Shown: positions 13,559 through 21,402 of the stretch, piece by piece
Position numbering within the stretch: the stretch's first letter is position 1
How the letters are laid out: every line of letters begins with the position of its first letter
Origin: Pelagibius sp.
GTDB lineage: Bacteria; Pseudomonadota; Alphaproteobacteria; Kiloniellales; Kiloniellaceae
Direction: 5' to 3'
Length of the DNA stretch: 64,000 nucleotides
Assembly: GCF_028281305.1 (NCBI RefSeq)
Contig: NZ_JANQKD010000003.1
Coordinates: forward strand, 1 to 64,000
Program-made: the position numbers and the translations under genes
The notes under the pieces: generated by a model
What the model was told of the DNA's origin: nothing
Seen by the model: the letters and a program-made list of their open reading frames with translations, nothing else
The model's database searches: none

Positions 13559-15809
<2,251 letters not shown>

Positions 15810-15964: not shown

Positions 15965-16108
15965 CTAGAGATTGCCGTAGATGAAGTTTGCCCGCGGCTC
16001 AAAGGCGCCGAAGGCGATCGCGAGGATCAGAAGGGCAAACCAGCACGCTGTGAGGGTGATCGCCAGCGGGCGCGGCAGTCGTCGGATAAGCTGTGTATAG
16101 AGCCACAT
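15965..16108 (-). CDS. 47-aa single-TM microprotein with C-terminal FIYGNL; candidate DltX-type acyl shuttle
   Basis: Hand reverse-complement translation: MWLYTQLIRRLPRPLAITLTACWFALLILAIAFGAFEPRANFIYGNL*. ATG immediately follows the MBOAT TGA (ggagcagggTGAATG), with GGAG at SD distance. Basic N-terminus then a TM predicts N-in/C-out. Below the ORF-track size cutoff. Confidence 0.82.
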   Translation of the reverse strand: MWLYTQLIRRLPRPLAITLTACWFALLILAIAFGAFEPRANFIYGNL

Positions 16109-17257
16109 TCACCCTGCTCCCAAAACGAGGCGGCCGAAGACCTCGGCCATGGTGGCAAGATCGGGCTGGCGGACCAGTAGGAAGCCCAGCATTGCGAAAT
16201 GCAGGGTCACGACACCGCCGCAGAAGTTCGCCGCAAAACGCAGAATCCGCTGCTCGTCCGGCAGTGGTCCCAACCGGCGGGCCACCTGCTGCCAGACAAT
16301 GATGCCGAGACCGTGGTAAAGGCCCCATAGCAGGTAACGGAGCGACATTTCATGCCATAGCCCGATCGCCACCATGGTTGCCAGAGACGACAGTGCCGGG
16401 TTGCGGGTCACTGCGCTGATCCCGCCGTAGACGTACTGCCGCACGAGGCTGGTTAGCGAGATATGCCACCGTTGCCAGAAAACGGGCAGACTGGTGCTCA
16501 GAAAGGGCCAGTTGAAGTTCTCCATGACCCGGACCCCCAACAGCCGGGCGAAGCCTATCGCAATGTCGGACGCGCCCGAAAACTGCATGTAGAGGCCGAA
16601 GCCAATTCCCAGCATTGCAAGGTAGAGCCCTGCCCGCGACTCGGGCTCGGCAAGGCCGCCGGTCCAATCGCTGTAGAGTTGGGCAATCAGAAAGTTGCCG
16701 ACGAAAGCGATCTTCACGTAGCCGTAAACCAAGCGCTCGAGGCCCTCTGAAAACAGCGCCGGATCCCAGCGGTGCCTCCGGCGGTCGCGGTCGAAGGCCG
16801 GATAGCGGTGAATCGGGCCGATAACCAGCGTCGGAAGGAAGAACAGGTATTCGCCGAGGTCAAAAAACGCCTTTGCCTCGAGCCGCCCCATATAGCGCTC
16901 CAGCACAAAGTGAACGCAGCGCAGTGAGTAGAAGGAGAGTCCGAGCGGGATGATGGTGCCCCGCAGAACGTCATCTCCAGCGGTCGAGCTGAGGACCTTG
17001 AAAAAAATCAGACAGGCCAACGCCGGCAACAGCGCCACGGCGGTTTGCGCCCCGCTCATTGTGGGGCGCCGCGTGAGCTGGGCTGTAGCCAAAGTCAGCA
17101 GCACCAGCAGTACTGCCGAGAGCGGTGCCTTGATGGCGAGAAAGACGAGGGTGATGGCGGCAAGAAGACGAAAACGCGACGCCGCCGGCCACAGCCAGAA
17201 CAGGGTCGTTGTGCCCGAAATCCAGGCGAGCCACTCCATAGACAGATAACTCACCAC
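16109..17257 (-). CDS. MBOAT family O-acyltransferase (DltB/AlgI-like)
   Basis: Multi-TM; 'MVAIGLWHEMSLRYLLWGLYHGLGI' matches the MBOAT catalytic His region, and 'FLPTLVIGPIHRYPAFDRDR' is DltB/AlgI-like. Alternative start at 17239. Confidence 0.88.
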   Translation of the reverse strand: MVSYLSMEWLAWISGTTTLFWLWPAASRFRLLAAITLVFLAIKAPLSAVLLVLLTLATAQLTRRPTMSGAQTAVALLPALACLIFFKVLSSTAGDDVLRGTIIPLGLSFYSLRCVHFVLERYMGRLEAKAFFDLGEYLFFLPTLVIGPIHRYPAFDRDRRRHRWDPALFSEGLERLVYGYVKIAFVGNFLIAQLYSDWTGGLAEPESRAGLYLAMLGIGFGLYMQFSGASDIAIGFARLLGVRVMENFNWPFLSTSLPVFWQRWHISLTSLVRQYVYGGISAVTRNPALSSLATMVAIGLWHEMSLRYLLWGLYHGLGIIVWQQVARRLGPLPDEQRILRFAANFCGGVVTLHFAMLGFLLVRQPDLATMAEVFGRLVLGAG

Positions 17258-17275: not shown

Positions 17276-18199
17276 CTACGCCTTGCGTGTCGACCGCGCA
17301 TGATGGCCGAGGCTATGCAGATAACGCCGCCGTGCCTCCTGGAAGTCAGGTGCCGGCCCCGTCTCAAGAGGCGGGTAACCGAGCCTTTCCAGCCAGTCCG
17401 CAGCCAGCGGGGCGAGCCTGGCGACCTGTGGCATCGGCAGTTCCCGCCAGCGGTCCCGACTGTTCGTGTGAACGCTGCTGCTCTGATAGCTCTTGTGGTC
17501 GCTGAACCCGAGATCGCCGACCCGCGCCAGCGCGCCTTCGGCGAAACCGGTATCTGTGTCGGCGCCCATAAAGCCGAGAATGTCCGTCAGACTTCCGGTG
17601 AGGTCGTCGACAAGATCCTCGTAGCGGAGGATCAGAACCTGCTGTGGGCGCCGCTGGCCCAGTGCTACCAGGGCCTCGCTGACGTCGATCCAGGAATGCA
17701 GGAAGGCTTCGATCGGCTGCGGCCAGCGGCGCACATAGTGATGAAGCACCTGAGGGTAGCTTCCCATGGCATCGCAGAACTCGCGGCAGCTCACCGCCAC
17801 GCTGAAGGGATGGCGCAGGATCCCCAAATAGCGTACCCGGTCGCCGCAGAGCCGCTCGATCATCGGGATCTGGAAGGCGTCGAAGGCTGTTTTCTCGGCC
17901 CAGAAACGTTTGCCGGATTGCCGTGCGAAGTCGTCGAGGAAGCCGAAGCAAAGTGCCCGCAGGCGATCCAACGTTTCGCTTTCCTCGAAACCCAGGTATT
18001 CAAGTCCCGACAGCACGCCCATATCGGTACCTTCAGCGGTTACATCCGCCGCCAGAAAACGGGCTGCCGCCCCGAACAGATGAGTTTCGGGCGGAGCGGC
18101 GATTTCCGGATGGGCATCGAGCAACCGGCGCAGCAGCGTGGTGCCGGAGCGCGGATGCCCCAAGATGATGGTTCCGCTGATTGTCGAGGCAGCGCTCAC
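17276..18199 (-). CDS. Sulfotransferase family protein
   Basis: 'GTIILGHPRSGTTLLRRLLDAHPEIAAPPETHLF' (5'-PSB PAPS-binding loop) and 'YLGILRHPFSVAVSCREF' (3'-phosphate binding region). Confidence 0.9.
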   Translation of the reverse strand: MSAASTISGTIILGHPRSGTTLLRRLLDAHPEIAAPPETHLFGAAARFLAADVTAEGTDMGVLSGLEYLGFEESETLDRLRALCFGFLDDFARQSGKRFWAEKTAFDAFQIPMIERLCGDRVRYLGILRHPFSVAVSCREFCDAMGSYPQVLHHYVRRWPQPIEAFLHSWIDVSEALVALGQRRPQQVLILRYEDLVDDLTGSLTDILGFMGADTDTGFAEGALARVGDLGFSDHKSYQSSSVHTNSRDRWRELPMPQVARLAPLAADWLERLGYPPLETGPAPDFQEARRRYLHSLGHHARSTRKA

Positions 18200-20082
18200 G
18201 ACCCTGTTTCTTTCAGCGACCGGCGATCACCCAGCTGCCGCTCAACGGCTTTCACTGCATGGTCAATGCTGATCATGCTCATGGTTTCGCGGGGACTCAG
18301 CTGAAGCCGGAAGGCCCGCTCCAGCGCCATCACGAACTCCAAGAATTTCAGTGAGTCGACGCTGCCCGTGTCGTCCAATCGGGTTTCCGCAGACAGACTC
18401 TCCGGCGGCACCCCCAGGGTCTCCGCCGCCACAGCCAGCACCTGGTCAAGCAGCGTTGCGCCCTGTCTCTGGCCGCTCTCTTCGGCCTCGGCTACCAGCC
18501 GGCGTAGCGCCTCGATCTCGACCTTGCCCGAAGGGCCGTAGGGCAGCGCCGGCAAGACCACGATGCGGTCAGGCACCTTCTCCGGTGCCAGCTCCTGCCG
18601 GCAATGCGCCATGACCGCTGGCGGCAAGTCGGTGTGCGAGCTCTCGGACGCTACAACGCAGCCGATCACGCGCTCACCCAAAAGACGGTCCGGCAGACCG
18701 ACCGTCGCCGCCGCTGTCACCTCAGGAGCCGACAGCAGCGCCGTGGTCACGTCTTCGGGGTAGACATTGGTGCCGCCGCGCAGGATGACGCTCTTGATGC
18801 GGCCGACGATCCGGTAGAAGCCATCGGCATCGCGCATGCCGAGATCGCCGGTCTTCAGCCAGCCCTCTTCGGTGAGAACCGCCCGCGTTGCTTCCGGCGC
18901 CTTAAAGTAGCCGGCCATCACGTTGTCGCCGCGGATCCAAATCTCACCGGGCTGGCCATCGGCCGCCGGTCGGCCATCGGGATCGGCAAGCATCACCTCG
19001 CAGTCCACCGGCTTTCCGATGGTGCCTATGCGCCGCGTCTCCGTGCTGGGGCCACAGTAGAGCGCCTCGCAACAGGTTTCCGTCAGGCCATAGGCATTCA
19101 CGACCATTATTTTGAAGCGCGCTTCTACCGTCTGCCATACGCCTTCGTCCAGCGGTCCGGCCGTGGAAACGGCGAAGCGAAACTCCGGATGGCGGAAGCT
19201 GTCATTGTAGTCCTCCGGCAGCATAGCCATCATACCCAGCACGGTCGGCACGGTGACGAGGTGGCTTGCGCGGTGTTGGTAGGCTGCGTCGAGCATCTGC
19301 CCAAGCGAATGCATTGCGACCGGTTGCGGGCGCACGACGGTCGCGCCGCTGGACAGCGCTTGAAGCGGGCCCTGGTTCAGGCCATCCGAGTGATGCAGGG
19401 GCAAGTGATTGACGATGACACTGTTCTCGCCGATACCGAACTGCCGCTGGAGGGTTTGCATCTGCACGGCCAGGTTCGCAAAGGTGATCTCCACCCCCTT
19501 GGGCTCCGAGGTGGTACCGGAGGTGAAGAGTATTAGCGCCGTGGCATCGCTTGCCGCGTGCGTCACCGGCGCTGTCTCGCTCTGCTCTTGGAGCATCGCC
19601 GGATAGCTGTCCGTGTTATCTCGAGACCGCCCGCGCAGCAGCAGACCGAAAGCGTTTTTCTGTACCTTCAACGGCTCGATCCGGATCACTGGCACTTCGA
19701 GACGGCTGCTCACCGCGAGGCTTCGCTCAACGACCGCCGTGTCGGCGAAGACGGCCGCAGGCTCTGCCCTTTCGATCAGCACCGTAAGCTCGGCGGCTGA
19801 GGCGGCGGGGTCAATAACGACAGCGGTCAGTCCCATGGTCAGCGTAGCGCCATAGAGGGTCGTGACCGCGGCATCGTCCGCCGAGGCAATCACTACCCTT
19901 GCTTCGGGCTCAAGACCAAGCCGAGCAAAGAGCCCGCGGGTCTGCGCTATGCGCGTTCCTACCTCGCCATGGGTCAGAGTGACGGCACCGAGGAAGAAGG
20001 GTTTGGCCGCCGCCATTCGCTCGGCGGTGCCGGCGATCATCCGGCCAATGGTCCCATTGACCGGGCTGTCGGTATCCGTCAT
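18196..20082 (-). CDS. AMP-dependent acyl/amino-acid ligase fused to a C-terminal phosphopantetheine carrier domain (DltA/DltC-like fusion)
   Basis: 'ALILFTSGTTSEPKGVEITFANL', 'NAYGLTETCCEALY', 'GWLKTGDLGMRDADGFYRIVGRIKSVILRGGTNVYPEDV'; C-terminal 'TRLDDTGSVDSLKFLEFVMALERAF' with DSL carrier serine. ATGA overlap with both neighbours. Confidence 0.9.
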   Translation of the reverse strand: MTDTDSPVNGTIGRMIAGTAERMAAAKPFFLGAVTLTHGEVGTRIAQTRGLFARLGLEPEARVVIASADDAAVTTLYGATLTMGLTAVVIDPAASAAELTVLIERAEPAAVFADTAVVERSLAVSSRLEVPVIRIEPLKVQKNAFGLLLRGRSRDNTDSYPAMLQEQSETAPVTHAASDATALILFTSGTTSEPKGVEITFANLAVQMQTLQRQFGIGENSVIVNHLPLHHSDGLNQGPLQALSSGATVVRPQPVAMHSLGQMLDAAYQHRASHLVTVPTVLGMMAMLPEDYNDSFRHPEFRFAVSTAGPLDEGVWQTVEARFKIMVVNAYGLTETCCEALYCGPSTETRRIGTIGKPVDCEVMLADPDGRPAADGQPGEIWIRGDNVMAGYFKAPEATRAVLTEEGWLKTGDLGMRDADGFYRIVGRIKSVILRGGTNVYPEDVTTALLSAPEVTAAATVGLPDRLLGERVIGCVVASESSHTDLPPAVMAHCRQELAPEKVPDRIVVLPALPYGPSGKVEIEALRRLVAEAEESGQRQGATLLDQVLAVAAETLGVPPESLSAETRLDDTGSVDSLKFLEFVMALERAFRLQLSPRETMSMISIDHAVKAVERQLGDRRSLKETGS

Positions 20083-20978
20083 GGCGTTCCTCCCAGGCGC
20101 GCCTGCAGCCGGCCGAGGAGCATCTCGGTAAAAACCGCGCGCCCTTTGGCGTTCATATGGACGACGTCGCAGTAGTGATCGTTGGAGAGGGTGATCCCGT
20201 GATCGATGGTCCTGAGGTCCGCCGGACGCTTGTATCCCGGCAGCACTGCATGGCCCTCTTCAGTGATCGGCACCGGCAGAACCGCGATTTCGATGCCGGC
20301 GTCTTCGGCGGCAGCGACAAAGCGGGCGATAGCCTTCGCATTCGCTCCCTCGGCATCGAAGCTCACCCACTCGGAAACGCGTTCTTTGCGTTCGTGGGCG
20401 TTTTCGTCGGAGAGCACATCGCAGCGAACATCCGTCTGCAGCATGGCCTGATCGACGTTGCCCGGATTCCAGGGGCCGCTCCCAGCAACCTGCCAAATGA
20501 GGTATGTGCGGCCGAGAAGAAGGCGGCTCCCGGTCTCTCGCTCCTTGGCAAAGAGATCTTCCTGGAGGATCACCAGCCTGGGCCGTGCGGCGAGGATCTG
20601 CGGAGCCAGTCCCGCAAAATCCGACCAGATCGCCCAGACATTGGACAGCCGCAGCGCCGCGGCAGGCATGTCGAGGCGTTGACTGAGCAGCCGTGAGAAG
20701 GCTACGTCCTCGGGCAGCGCATAACGCAGGCGCGAGTCGCCGATCATGACGACGCCCTGGGCACCAGCCTCAATCTTCGCGGCCAAGGCCTCAATGCGCG
20801 GGGCATTGTGGAGGTCGAAGGCCTCTGAAGGTGGCGTTTCGGCGCGAAGATAAAGATAACCGCCACAGATGAGCGCGACCGCCAGAATTGCGGTCAGCGG
20901 CCAGACGGAGAGAGGAAGTCGGGACGGATCCCCGGCGGTCGGCCCAGACCCCGGCGAACCTTCGGCGAGATTGGTCAT
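20079..20978 (-). CDS. Membrane-anchored SGNH/GDSL-like protein (DltD/AlgX-type extracytoplasmic transferase candidate)
   Basis: N-terminal TM 'LSVWPLTAILAVALICGGYLYL'; block I 'GVVMIGDSRLRYALPE'; C-terminal 'CDVVHMNAKGRAVFTEML' (DxxH). Start chosen at MTNLAEG (20978); longer ORF to 21041. Confidence 0.8.
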   Translation of the reverse strand: MTNLAEGSPGSGPTAGDPSRLPLSVWPLTAILAVALICGGYLYLRAETPPSEAFDLHNAPRIEALAAKIEAGAQGVVMIGDSRLRYALPEDVAFSRLLSQRLDMPAAALRLSNVWAIWSDFAGLAPQILAARPRLVILQEDLFAKERETGSRLLLGRTYLIWQVAGSGPWNPGNVDQAMLQTDVRCDVLSDENAHERKERVSEWVSFDAEGANAKAIARFVAAAEDAGIEIAVLPVPITEEGHAVLPGYKRPADLRTIDHGITLSNDHYCDVVHMNAKGRAVFTEMLLGRLQARLGGTP

Positions 20979-21402
20979 GCGCCCCCGCATACCCCCGGGC
21001 GTGAAGGTTCGCTGAGCCGACAGCAGAGGCGTCGGGAGCATGCCAACGTCTCGTCGCTCATATCAGGACGCCCTCTGTCGATCACGACCCCAGGTGGCGC
21101 GGCTTCCCGGCTCGGGGCAGTCCGCGTCGGCATAGAATCCACGGATATCGTTAAGGAACCATGAGGGTAGAAGCCGCCATGGAGCCGTCATGGAGCCGCG
21201 TGGCCATGTCTGGGAGCCGCCCCTGCCTGCGGCAATCGTCTTCGAAGGCGAGCCGGTGCGCAGGCCGTTGCCGAGCAGACCGGCTTCACCATGCTGGGCG
21301 ATGCCGAGGGTGGCTTCGCCAAGTACGGTATCAATCTTGAGTAGCTGATACGGAGCGCCGATCTTCTTGAGTGTCCACTCGGCTTGACAAAAGTGTTCGA
21401 AG

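Follow-up and report, generated by a model that had tools for sequence, protein, structure and literature searches.

The operon analysed here raises the question whether an MBOAT acyltransferase of a Gram-negative bacterium can be served by an acyl shuttle that is encoded as a separate microprotein. In DltX and in PatA, the acyl group is held as an acyl-Tyr intermediate within an FxYxxF motif and is passed to the serine of an SGNH protein (PMC12148441). Gram-negative MBOATs have been described as carrying FxYxxF fused on two extra transmembrane (TM) helices, with acetyl-CoA as the donor of PatA, and the same article (JBC, 2025) states that MBOAT/SGNH pathways other than Dlt have neither a carrier protein nor a DltX-like microprotein (PMC12148441). 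The dlt genes themselves have been reported in the Gram-negative Dickeya/Pectobacterium (PMC5541007). A sequence-only reading of the window (the whole stretch of 64,000 nucleotides that was analysed) had stated, in agreement with PMC12148441, that Gram-negative MBOATs usually carry the motif fused, and had claimed that an ORF behind an MBOAT gene encodes a free shuttle in a Gram-negative operon, with Tyr44 as the acyl acceptor.

A microprotein gene abuts the MBOAT gene

The claimed ORF of 47 codons opening at TGAATG was confirmed by translation of the minus strand (positions 15965-16108), which gave MWLYTQLIRRLPRPLAITLTACWFALLILAIAFGAFEPRANFIYGNL followed by a stop codon; the stop TGA of the MBOAT gene directly abuts the ATG of the microprotein gene, and both ORFs are in the same frame. 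The claimed basic N-terminus, single hydrophobic segment and FIYGNL tail also held at the level of the sequence, in which R9, R10 and R13 precede a single hydrophobic stretch with a short tail behind it, and from the positive-inside rule the C-terminus is inferred to be extracytoplasmic (periplasmic). A GGGAG is located 8 bases upstream of the ATG, the GC content by codon position (0.57/0.47/0.77) is similar to that of the operon genes, and the frame scored -177 under the in-frame codon model of the operon versus -196 and -209 under the out-of-frame models. The window contains 368 ORFs of 30-80 aa, of which that of the microprotein is the only one with a terminal F.Y..[FL], and in control loci (0.94 Mb) a single one of 5804 ORFs of this size has such an ending. 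Searches of Pfam, NCBIfam and the PDB returned no match to the microprotein. We consider it almost certain that this ORF is a real gene, its expression not having been shown.

The operon encodes a DltB-like MBOAT without its own shuttle motif

The operon on the minus strand encodes, in this order, an SGNH-fold protein, a fusion of an acyl-AMP ligase and a carrier domain, a sulfotransferase, a short DltB-like MBOAT and, last, the microprotein (Table 1). Neighbouring genes abut or share 4-base overlaps, with the exception of 18 bases between the sulfotransferase and MBOAT genes.

Table 1. Operon features on the analysed stretch.
Feature	Position	Strand	Evidence and characteristics
Microprotein, 47 aa	15965..16108	(-)	One TM segment, basic N-terminus, C-terminal FIYGNL; Tyr44 is the proposed acyl acceptor
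MBOAT, 382 aa, DltB-like	16109..17257	(-)	Pfam MBOAT E 9e-17; invariant Trp301-His302 (MBOAT His) in alignment
Sulfotransferase (Sulfotransfer_3)	17276..18199	(-)	Similar genes in the G349, G807 and G510 operons
AMP-forming acyl ligase fused to phosphopantetheine carrier domain	18196..20082	(-)	Profile searches
SGNH-fold protein; N-terminal hydrophobic helix, GDS (Ser103), DVVH (Asp292, His295)	20079..21041	(-)	Alignment and Foldseek

The window MBOAT ends in GRLVLGAG and is without the C-terminal FxYxxF of PatA/AlgI-type MBOATs. DltB was the only match when the PDB was searched with the MBOAT profile (E 7e-53) and the top match (8jem/6bug) of the structure model (pLDDT 83); against TIGR04091, the DltB equivalog model, the protein scored 149.8 bits, under the cut-off of 375. 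No close relative of this MBOAT was found in the plasmid collection, where no match covered 80% and the top identities were about 36%.

The SGNH-fold protein has no Pfam match. It fulfils the SGNH criterion of a serine in G-x-S, an Asp-x-x-His and the fold, and in an alignment of 10 such proteins from related operons Gly101, Ser103, Arg173, Asp292 and His295 were invariant. Its structure model (pLDDT 69, moderate confidence) matched TesA and sialate esterases in Foldseek, with DltD lower down. We assign it the DltD/PatB role in our scheme, its transferase activity being inferred; by operon layout, the ligase-carrier fusion would do the work of both DltA and DltC as a single polypeptide.

The host is regarded as Gram-negative because its genome (G000) carries LpxC (E 6e-104), and LpxC matches were present in 11 of the 13 genomes with a free shuttle. 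When compared with records of the plasmid collection, the 16S rRNA of G461, a member of the same phylum, was nearest to gammaproteobacteria, and on this ground we take the phylum to be Pseudomonadota. The claim of a free shuttle beside an MBOAT in a Gram-negative operon is thus supported by the motif-less DltB-like MBOAT, the SGNH protein and LpxC. Genome G012 (L177; 96% complete) contains a free-shuttle operon and no LpxC match. A katG gene adjoins the operon (window 13605-15809) and is also found near the free-shuttle locus of G012 (L177:8238-10433), possibly by chance.

The terminal tyrosine is kept while the gene changes its place

Among 14 aligned microproteins, the column of Tyr44 is the sole invariant position; identities to the window microprotein were 40% (L066) and 36% (L154). 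The closest MBOATs (48%) are those of G349 and G807, where the microprotein gene lies between the SGNH and ligase genes and its product ends in FIYAGF. Comparison of these two microproteins gave a dN of 0.17 and a dS of 0.98 (dN/dS about 0.18), from which we conclude that this counterpart is under purifying selection. The gene is located between the SGNH and MBOAT genes in G510 (ending FRYAGF) and behind the SGNH gene in G197 (ending FIYQGF). Across loci it was found behind the MBOAT gene (window, L066, L154, L060-062, L064, L065), in the SGNH-ligase gap (L059, L153), in the SGNH-MBOAT gap (L155), behind the SGNH gene (L051) and before the MBOAT gene (L094). That the position of the gene varies while the motif is kept argues strongly that its function is tied to the MBOAT machinery. 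In G461, a radical SAM/SPASM-like gene (L183:9115-10065) directly follows a microprotein gene whose product ends in FIYWDN.

The proposal of Tyr44 as acyl acceptor is supported by this invariance, the acyl-Tyr step itself remaining an inference. Two observations open to computation would have refuted the sequence-only reading, namely the lack of the ORF or of its C-terminal Tyr motif at related loci and a non-coding pattern of substitution; neither was made, as both ORF and motif are kept even where the gene has been relocated, and the substitutions between G349 and G807 are biased towards synonymous ones.

Free and fused shuttles lie on two sides of one branch

Free and fused shuttles were compared in loci of the same order, class and phylum together with 80 loci taken from named genomes of many phyla. 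An MBOAT was called fused when [FLIMVYWS]xYxx[FLIMVYW] occurred at or near its C-terminus, and the fused set was collected with the window MBOAT or its alignment as query. The survey comprised 126 MBOATs with their own C-terminal motif (nearly all F[IL]YxxF), 15 without it and 4 truncated by contig ends. The MBOATs found in 63 genomes of the window's order are either long, ending in F[IL]Y[FY]xF or nearly so, or short, without such a motif and next to a small ORF whose product combines a TM segment with a C-terminal Tyr. An automatic rule found a microprotein near 12 of the 15 motif-less MBOATs (13 when L061 is included) versus 10 of the 126 fused ones (Fisher 3e-9), and these last 10 look like chance ORFs. 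The microprotein of L061, overlooked by the rule, has PYLDL without the Phe; at L063 there is only a doubtful one, and at L069, on the free side of the tree and near a contig end, none was present in the available sequence. The free-shuttle MBOATs span several families of the window's class as well as G461 and G510 of the same phylum, and further free-shuttle loci were found in a Nitrospina MAG (L066, ...GVFGYLNL) and a Caldilineae MAG (L094, WIYQGF).

The tree was restricted to the core MBOAT columns because the C-terminal columns belong to the trait itself, and DltB was represented by the 6bug sequence. One branch (support 100/99, present in all 200 bootstrap trees) separated the 15 free MBOATs and the Gram-positive DltB from 56 fused representatives, so that the split between free and fused amounts to one change, and the window MBOAT was nested among the free ones. 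The branching order within the free group is unsure since several free rows, including DltB, have long branches. A carrier-protein domain was found near 12 of 14 free loci versus 2 of 74 fused loci, with a carrier profile seeded partly from free loci. Since one branch sets all the free loci apart, the counts cannot be treated as independent, and the p-values overstate their independence. Beyond what the sequence-only reading had claimed, the window MBOAT is one member of a second, carrier-protein-linked MBOAT branch.

Two further operons differ in gene content. That of G197 (L185 7266-11564; microprotein L051:221-331 (-)) encodes a carrier protein, an FkbH-domain protein, the MBOAT, the SGNH protein and the microprotein ending in FIYQGF, a content from which it may be inferred, as a possibility only, that glyceryl is moved from the carrier protein onto an envelope component. 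The free-shuttle MBOAT operon of G510 (L184 6440-12927) also contains a carrier protein and a sulfotransferase-like gene, together with an exosortase-A-associated ligase (TIGR03098), which has an amino-acid-type FD motif, and a decarboxylase (TIGR03099), both under cut-off.

Comparison with known systems

Judged by its sequence, the microprotein is like DltX (PF12459) in having about 50 aa, a basic N-terminus, one TM helix and a C-terminal F-x-Y-x-x-hydrophobic motif with an invariant Tyr. It is likewise encoded separately, in an operon that also provides a DltB-type MBOAT, an AMP ligase with a carrier protein, and an SGNH protein. FIYGNL meets the requirement for a DltX-like motif with Leu replacing the last Phe, as do FIYAGF, FRYAGF and FIYQGF of its relatives. 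Unlike in the Dlt system, the host is Gram-negative, the microprotein gene is the last and not the first of the operon, ligase and carrier are fused, a sulfotransferase is present, and the ligase is by its motif of the acyl-CoA-synthetase type. The Pfam DltX model PF12459 matched none of 12 microproteins and nothing in the host's own genome; across 399 genomes of the phylum no hit exceeded the cut-off, and in five genomes behind Bacillota loci the model found no DltX. With PatA/PatB and AlgI-type systems the operon shares an MBOAT, an SGNH protein and an acyl-Tyr shuttle motif (acyl-Tyr being inferred here), but its shuttle is not part of the MBOAT chain, and the operon also encodes a carrier domain. 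A Budvicia MBOAT (L121) is of the fused type, and its operon was not identified as dlt.

Proposed mechanism

What is shown by computation is the gene with its conservation and invariant Tyr, its partners in the operon, and the position of the motif-less MBOAT on the DltB side of the tree. It is likely that the microprotein is an acyl-Tyr shuttle that acts in trans, as DltX does, within a Gram-negative pathway resembling Dlt; its expression and the acylation of Tyr44 are inferred, and no complex was modelled. The lack of any match to DltX in Pfam or the PDB counts against this reading, as do the missing, doubtful or deviating microproteins of L069, L063 and L061. In the proposed scheme, the ligase would activate a carboxylic acid and load its own carrier domain, and the MBOAT would receive the acyl group at the cytoplasmic face from this carrier and pass it on to Tyr44 of the periplasmic FIYGNL tail, as inferred from DltB/DltX and PatA. 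From acyl-Tyr44 the group would pass to Ser103 of the SGNH protein and on to an unidentified envelope component. The ligase has the motif LPLHHSDG, which resembles acyl-CoA synthetases, the Asp of amino-acid-activating domains being absent; on this inference from the ligase motif, the acyl group is probably not D-Ala.

Alternative explanations

The alternative that survives best, albeit an unlikely one, is that the microprotein has a structural or regulatory role, as a subunit that keeps the MBOAT stable or provides a docking site for the SGNH protein, its Tyr serving for binding and not for acyl carriage. Single-TM microproteins often act as subunits, and DltX itself contacts DltB as well as DltD (PMC12148441). 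Against this, the partner MBOATs are without exactly the motif whose Tyr accepts the acyl group in PatA, and this Tyr is the sole invariant position; we disfavour the alternative because a trade-off with the fused motif is not what one would expect of a protein that is only a subunit.

There is very little to suggest that the ORF is not a separate gene but the detached C-terminal end of a once-fused MBOAT or the product of read-through of the TGA, apart from the shared frame of this TGA and the ATG in the window's genome. Fused MBOATs carry the motif on two extra TM helices (PMC12148441), whereas the microprotein has a single TM segment and a basic N-terminus; the ORF overlaps the stop of the MBOAT gene in a different frame in L060, L062, L065 and L066, the gene lies elsewhere in the operon in G349, G807, G510 and G197, and the window MBOAT is nested among free ones on the tree. 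That the ORF is untranslated and its terminal motif a coincidence is likewise very improbable: the ORF is short and no family model matches it, but the chance of the terminal motif is about 2 in 10,000 small ORFs, counterparts occur in a dozen other loci, dN/dS is 0.18 in sister genomes, and the codon-frame score favours the coding frame.

A possible division of the MBOATs of SGNH systems into two kinds

A free shuttle beyond the Gram-positive Dlt system was not reported in the literature we searched (titles, abstracts and passages; most subscription papers lay outside the search). On the computed evidence, the shuttle microproteins stand outside PF12459 by its model and yet would be DltX-like in their working, a function that is inferred. 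Our result argues against the published statement that carrier proteins and DltX-like microproteins are absent from the non-Dlt MBOAT/SGNH pathways (PMC12148441), and suggests a simple rule by which carrier-fed MBOATs use a free shuttle and CoA-fed MBOATs a fused one. A bolder reading, towards which we lean without regarding it as secure, is that the MBOATs of SGNH systems are of two ancient kinds, one carrier-fed with a microprotein acting in trans, of which the Gram-positive Dlt system is one case, the other acyl-CoA-fed with a fused shuttle; the trans kind would then represent mostly unannotated envelope acylation in Pseudomonadota, Nitrospinota and Chloroflexota with acyl groups as varied as carboxylic acids, glyceryl and amino acids. 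With shuttle and MBOAT naturally encoded as two proteins, the operon would allow the shuttle to be mutated or labelled while the MBOAT is left untouched. ORFs of the microprotein type adjoin the acyltransferases of an entire branch that is linked to carrier proteins and for the most part undescribed, and such small genes, readily overlooked by annotation, may be essential to envelope modification in Gram-negative bacteria.
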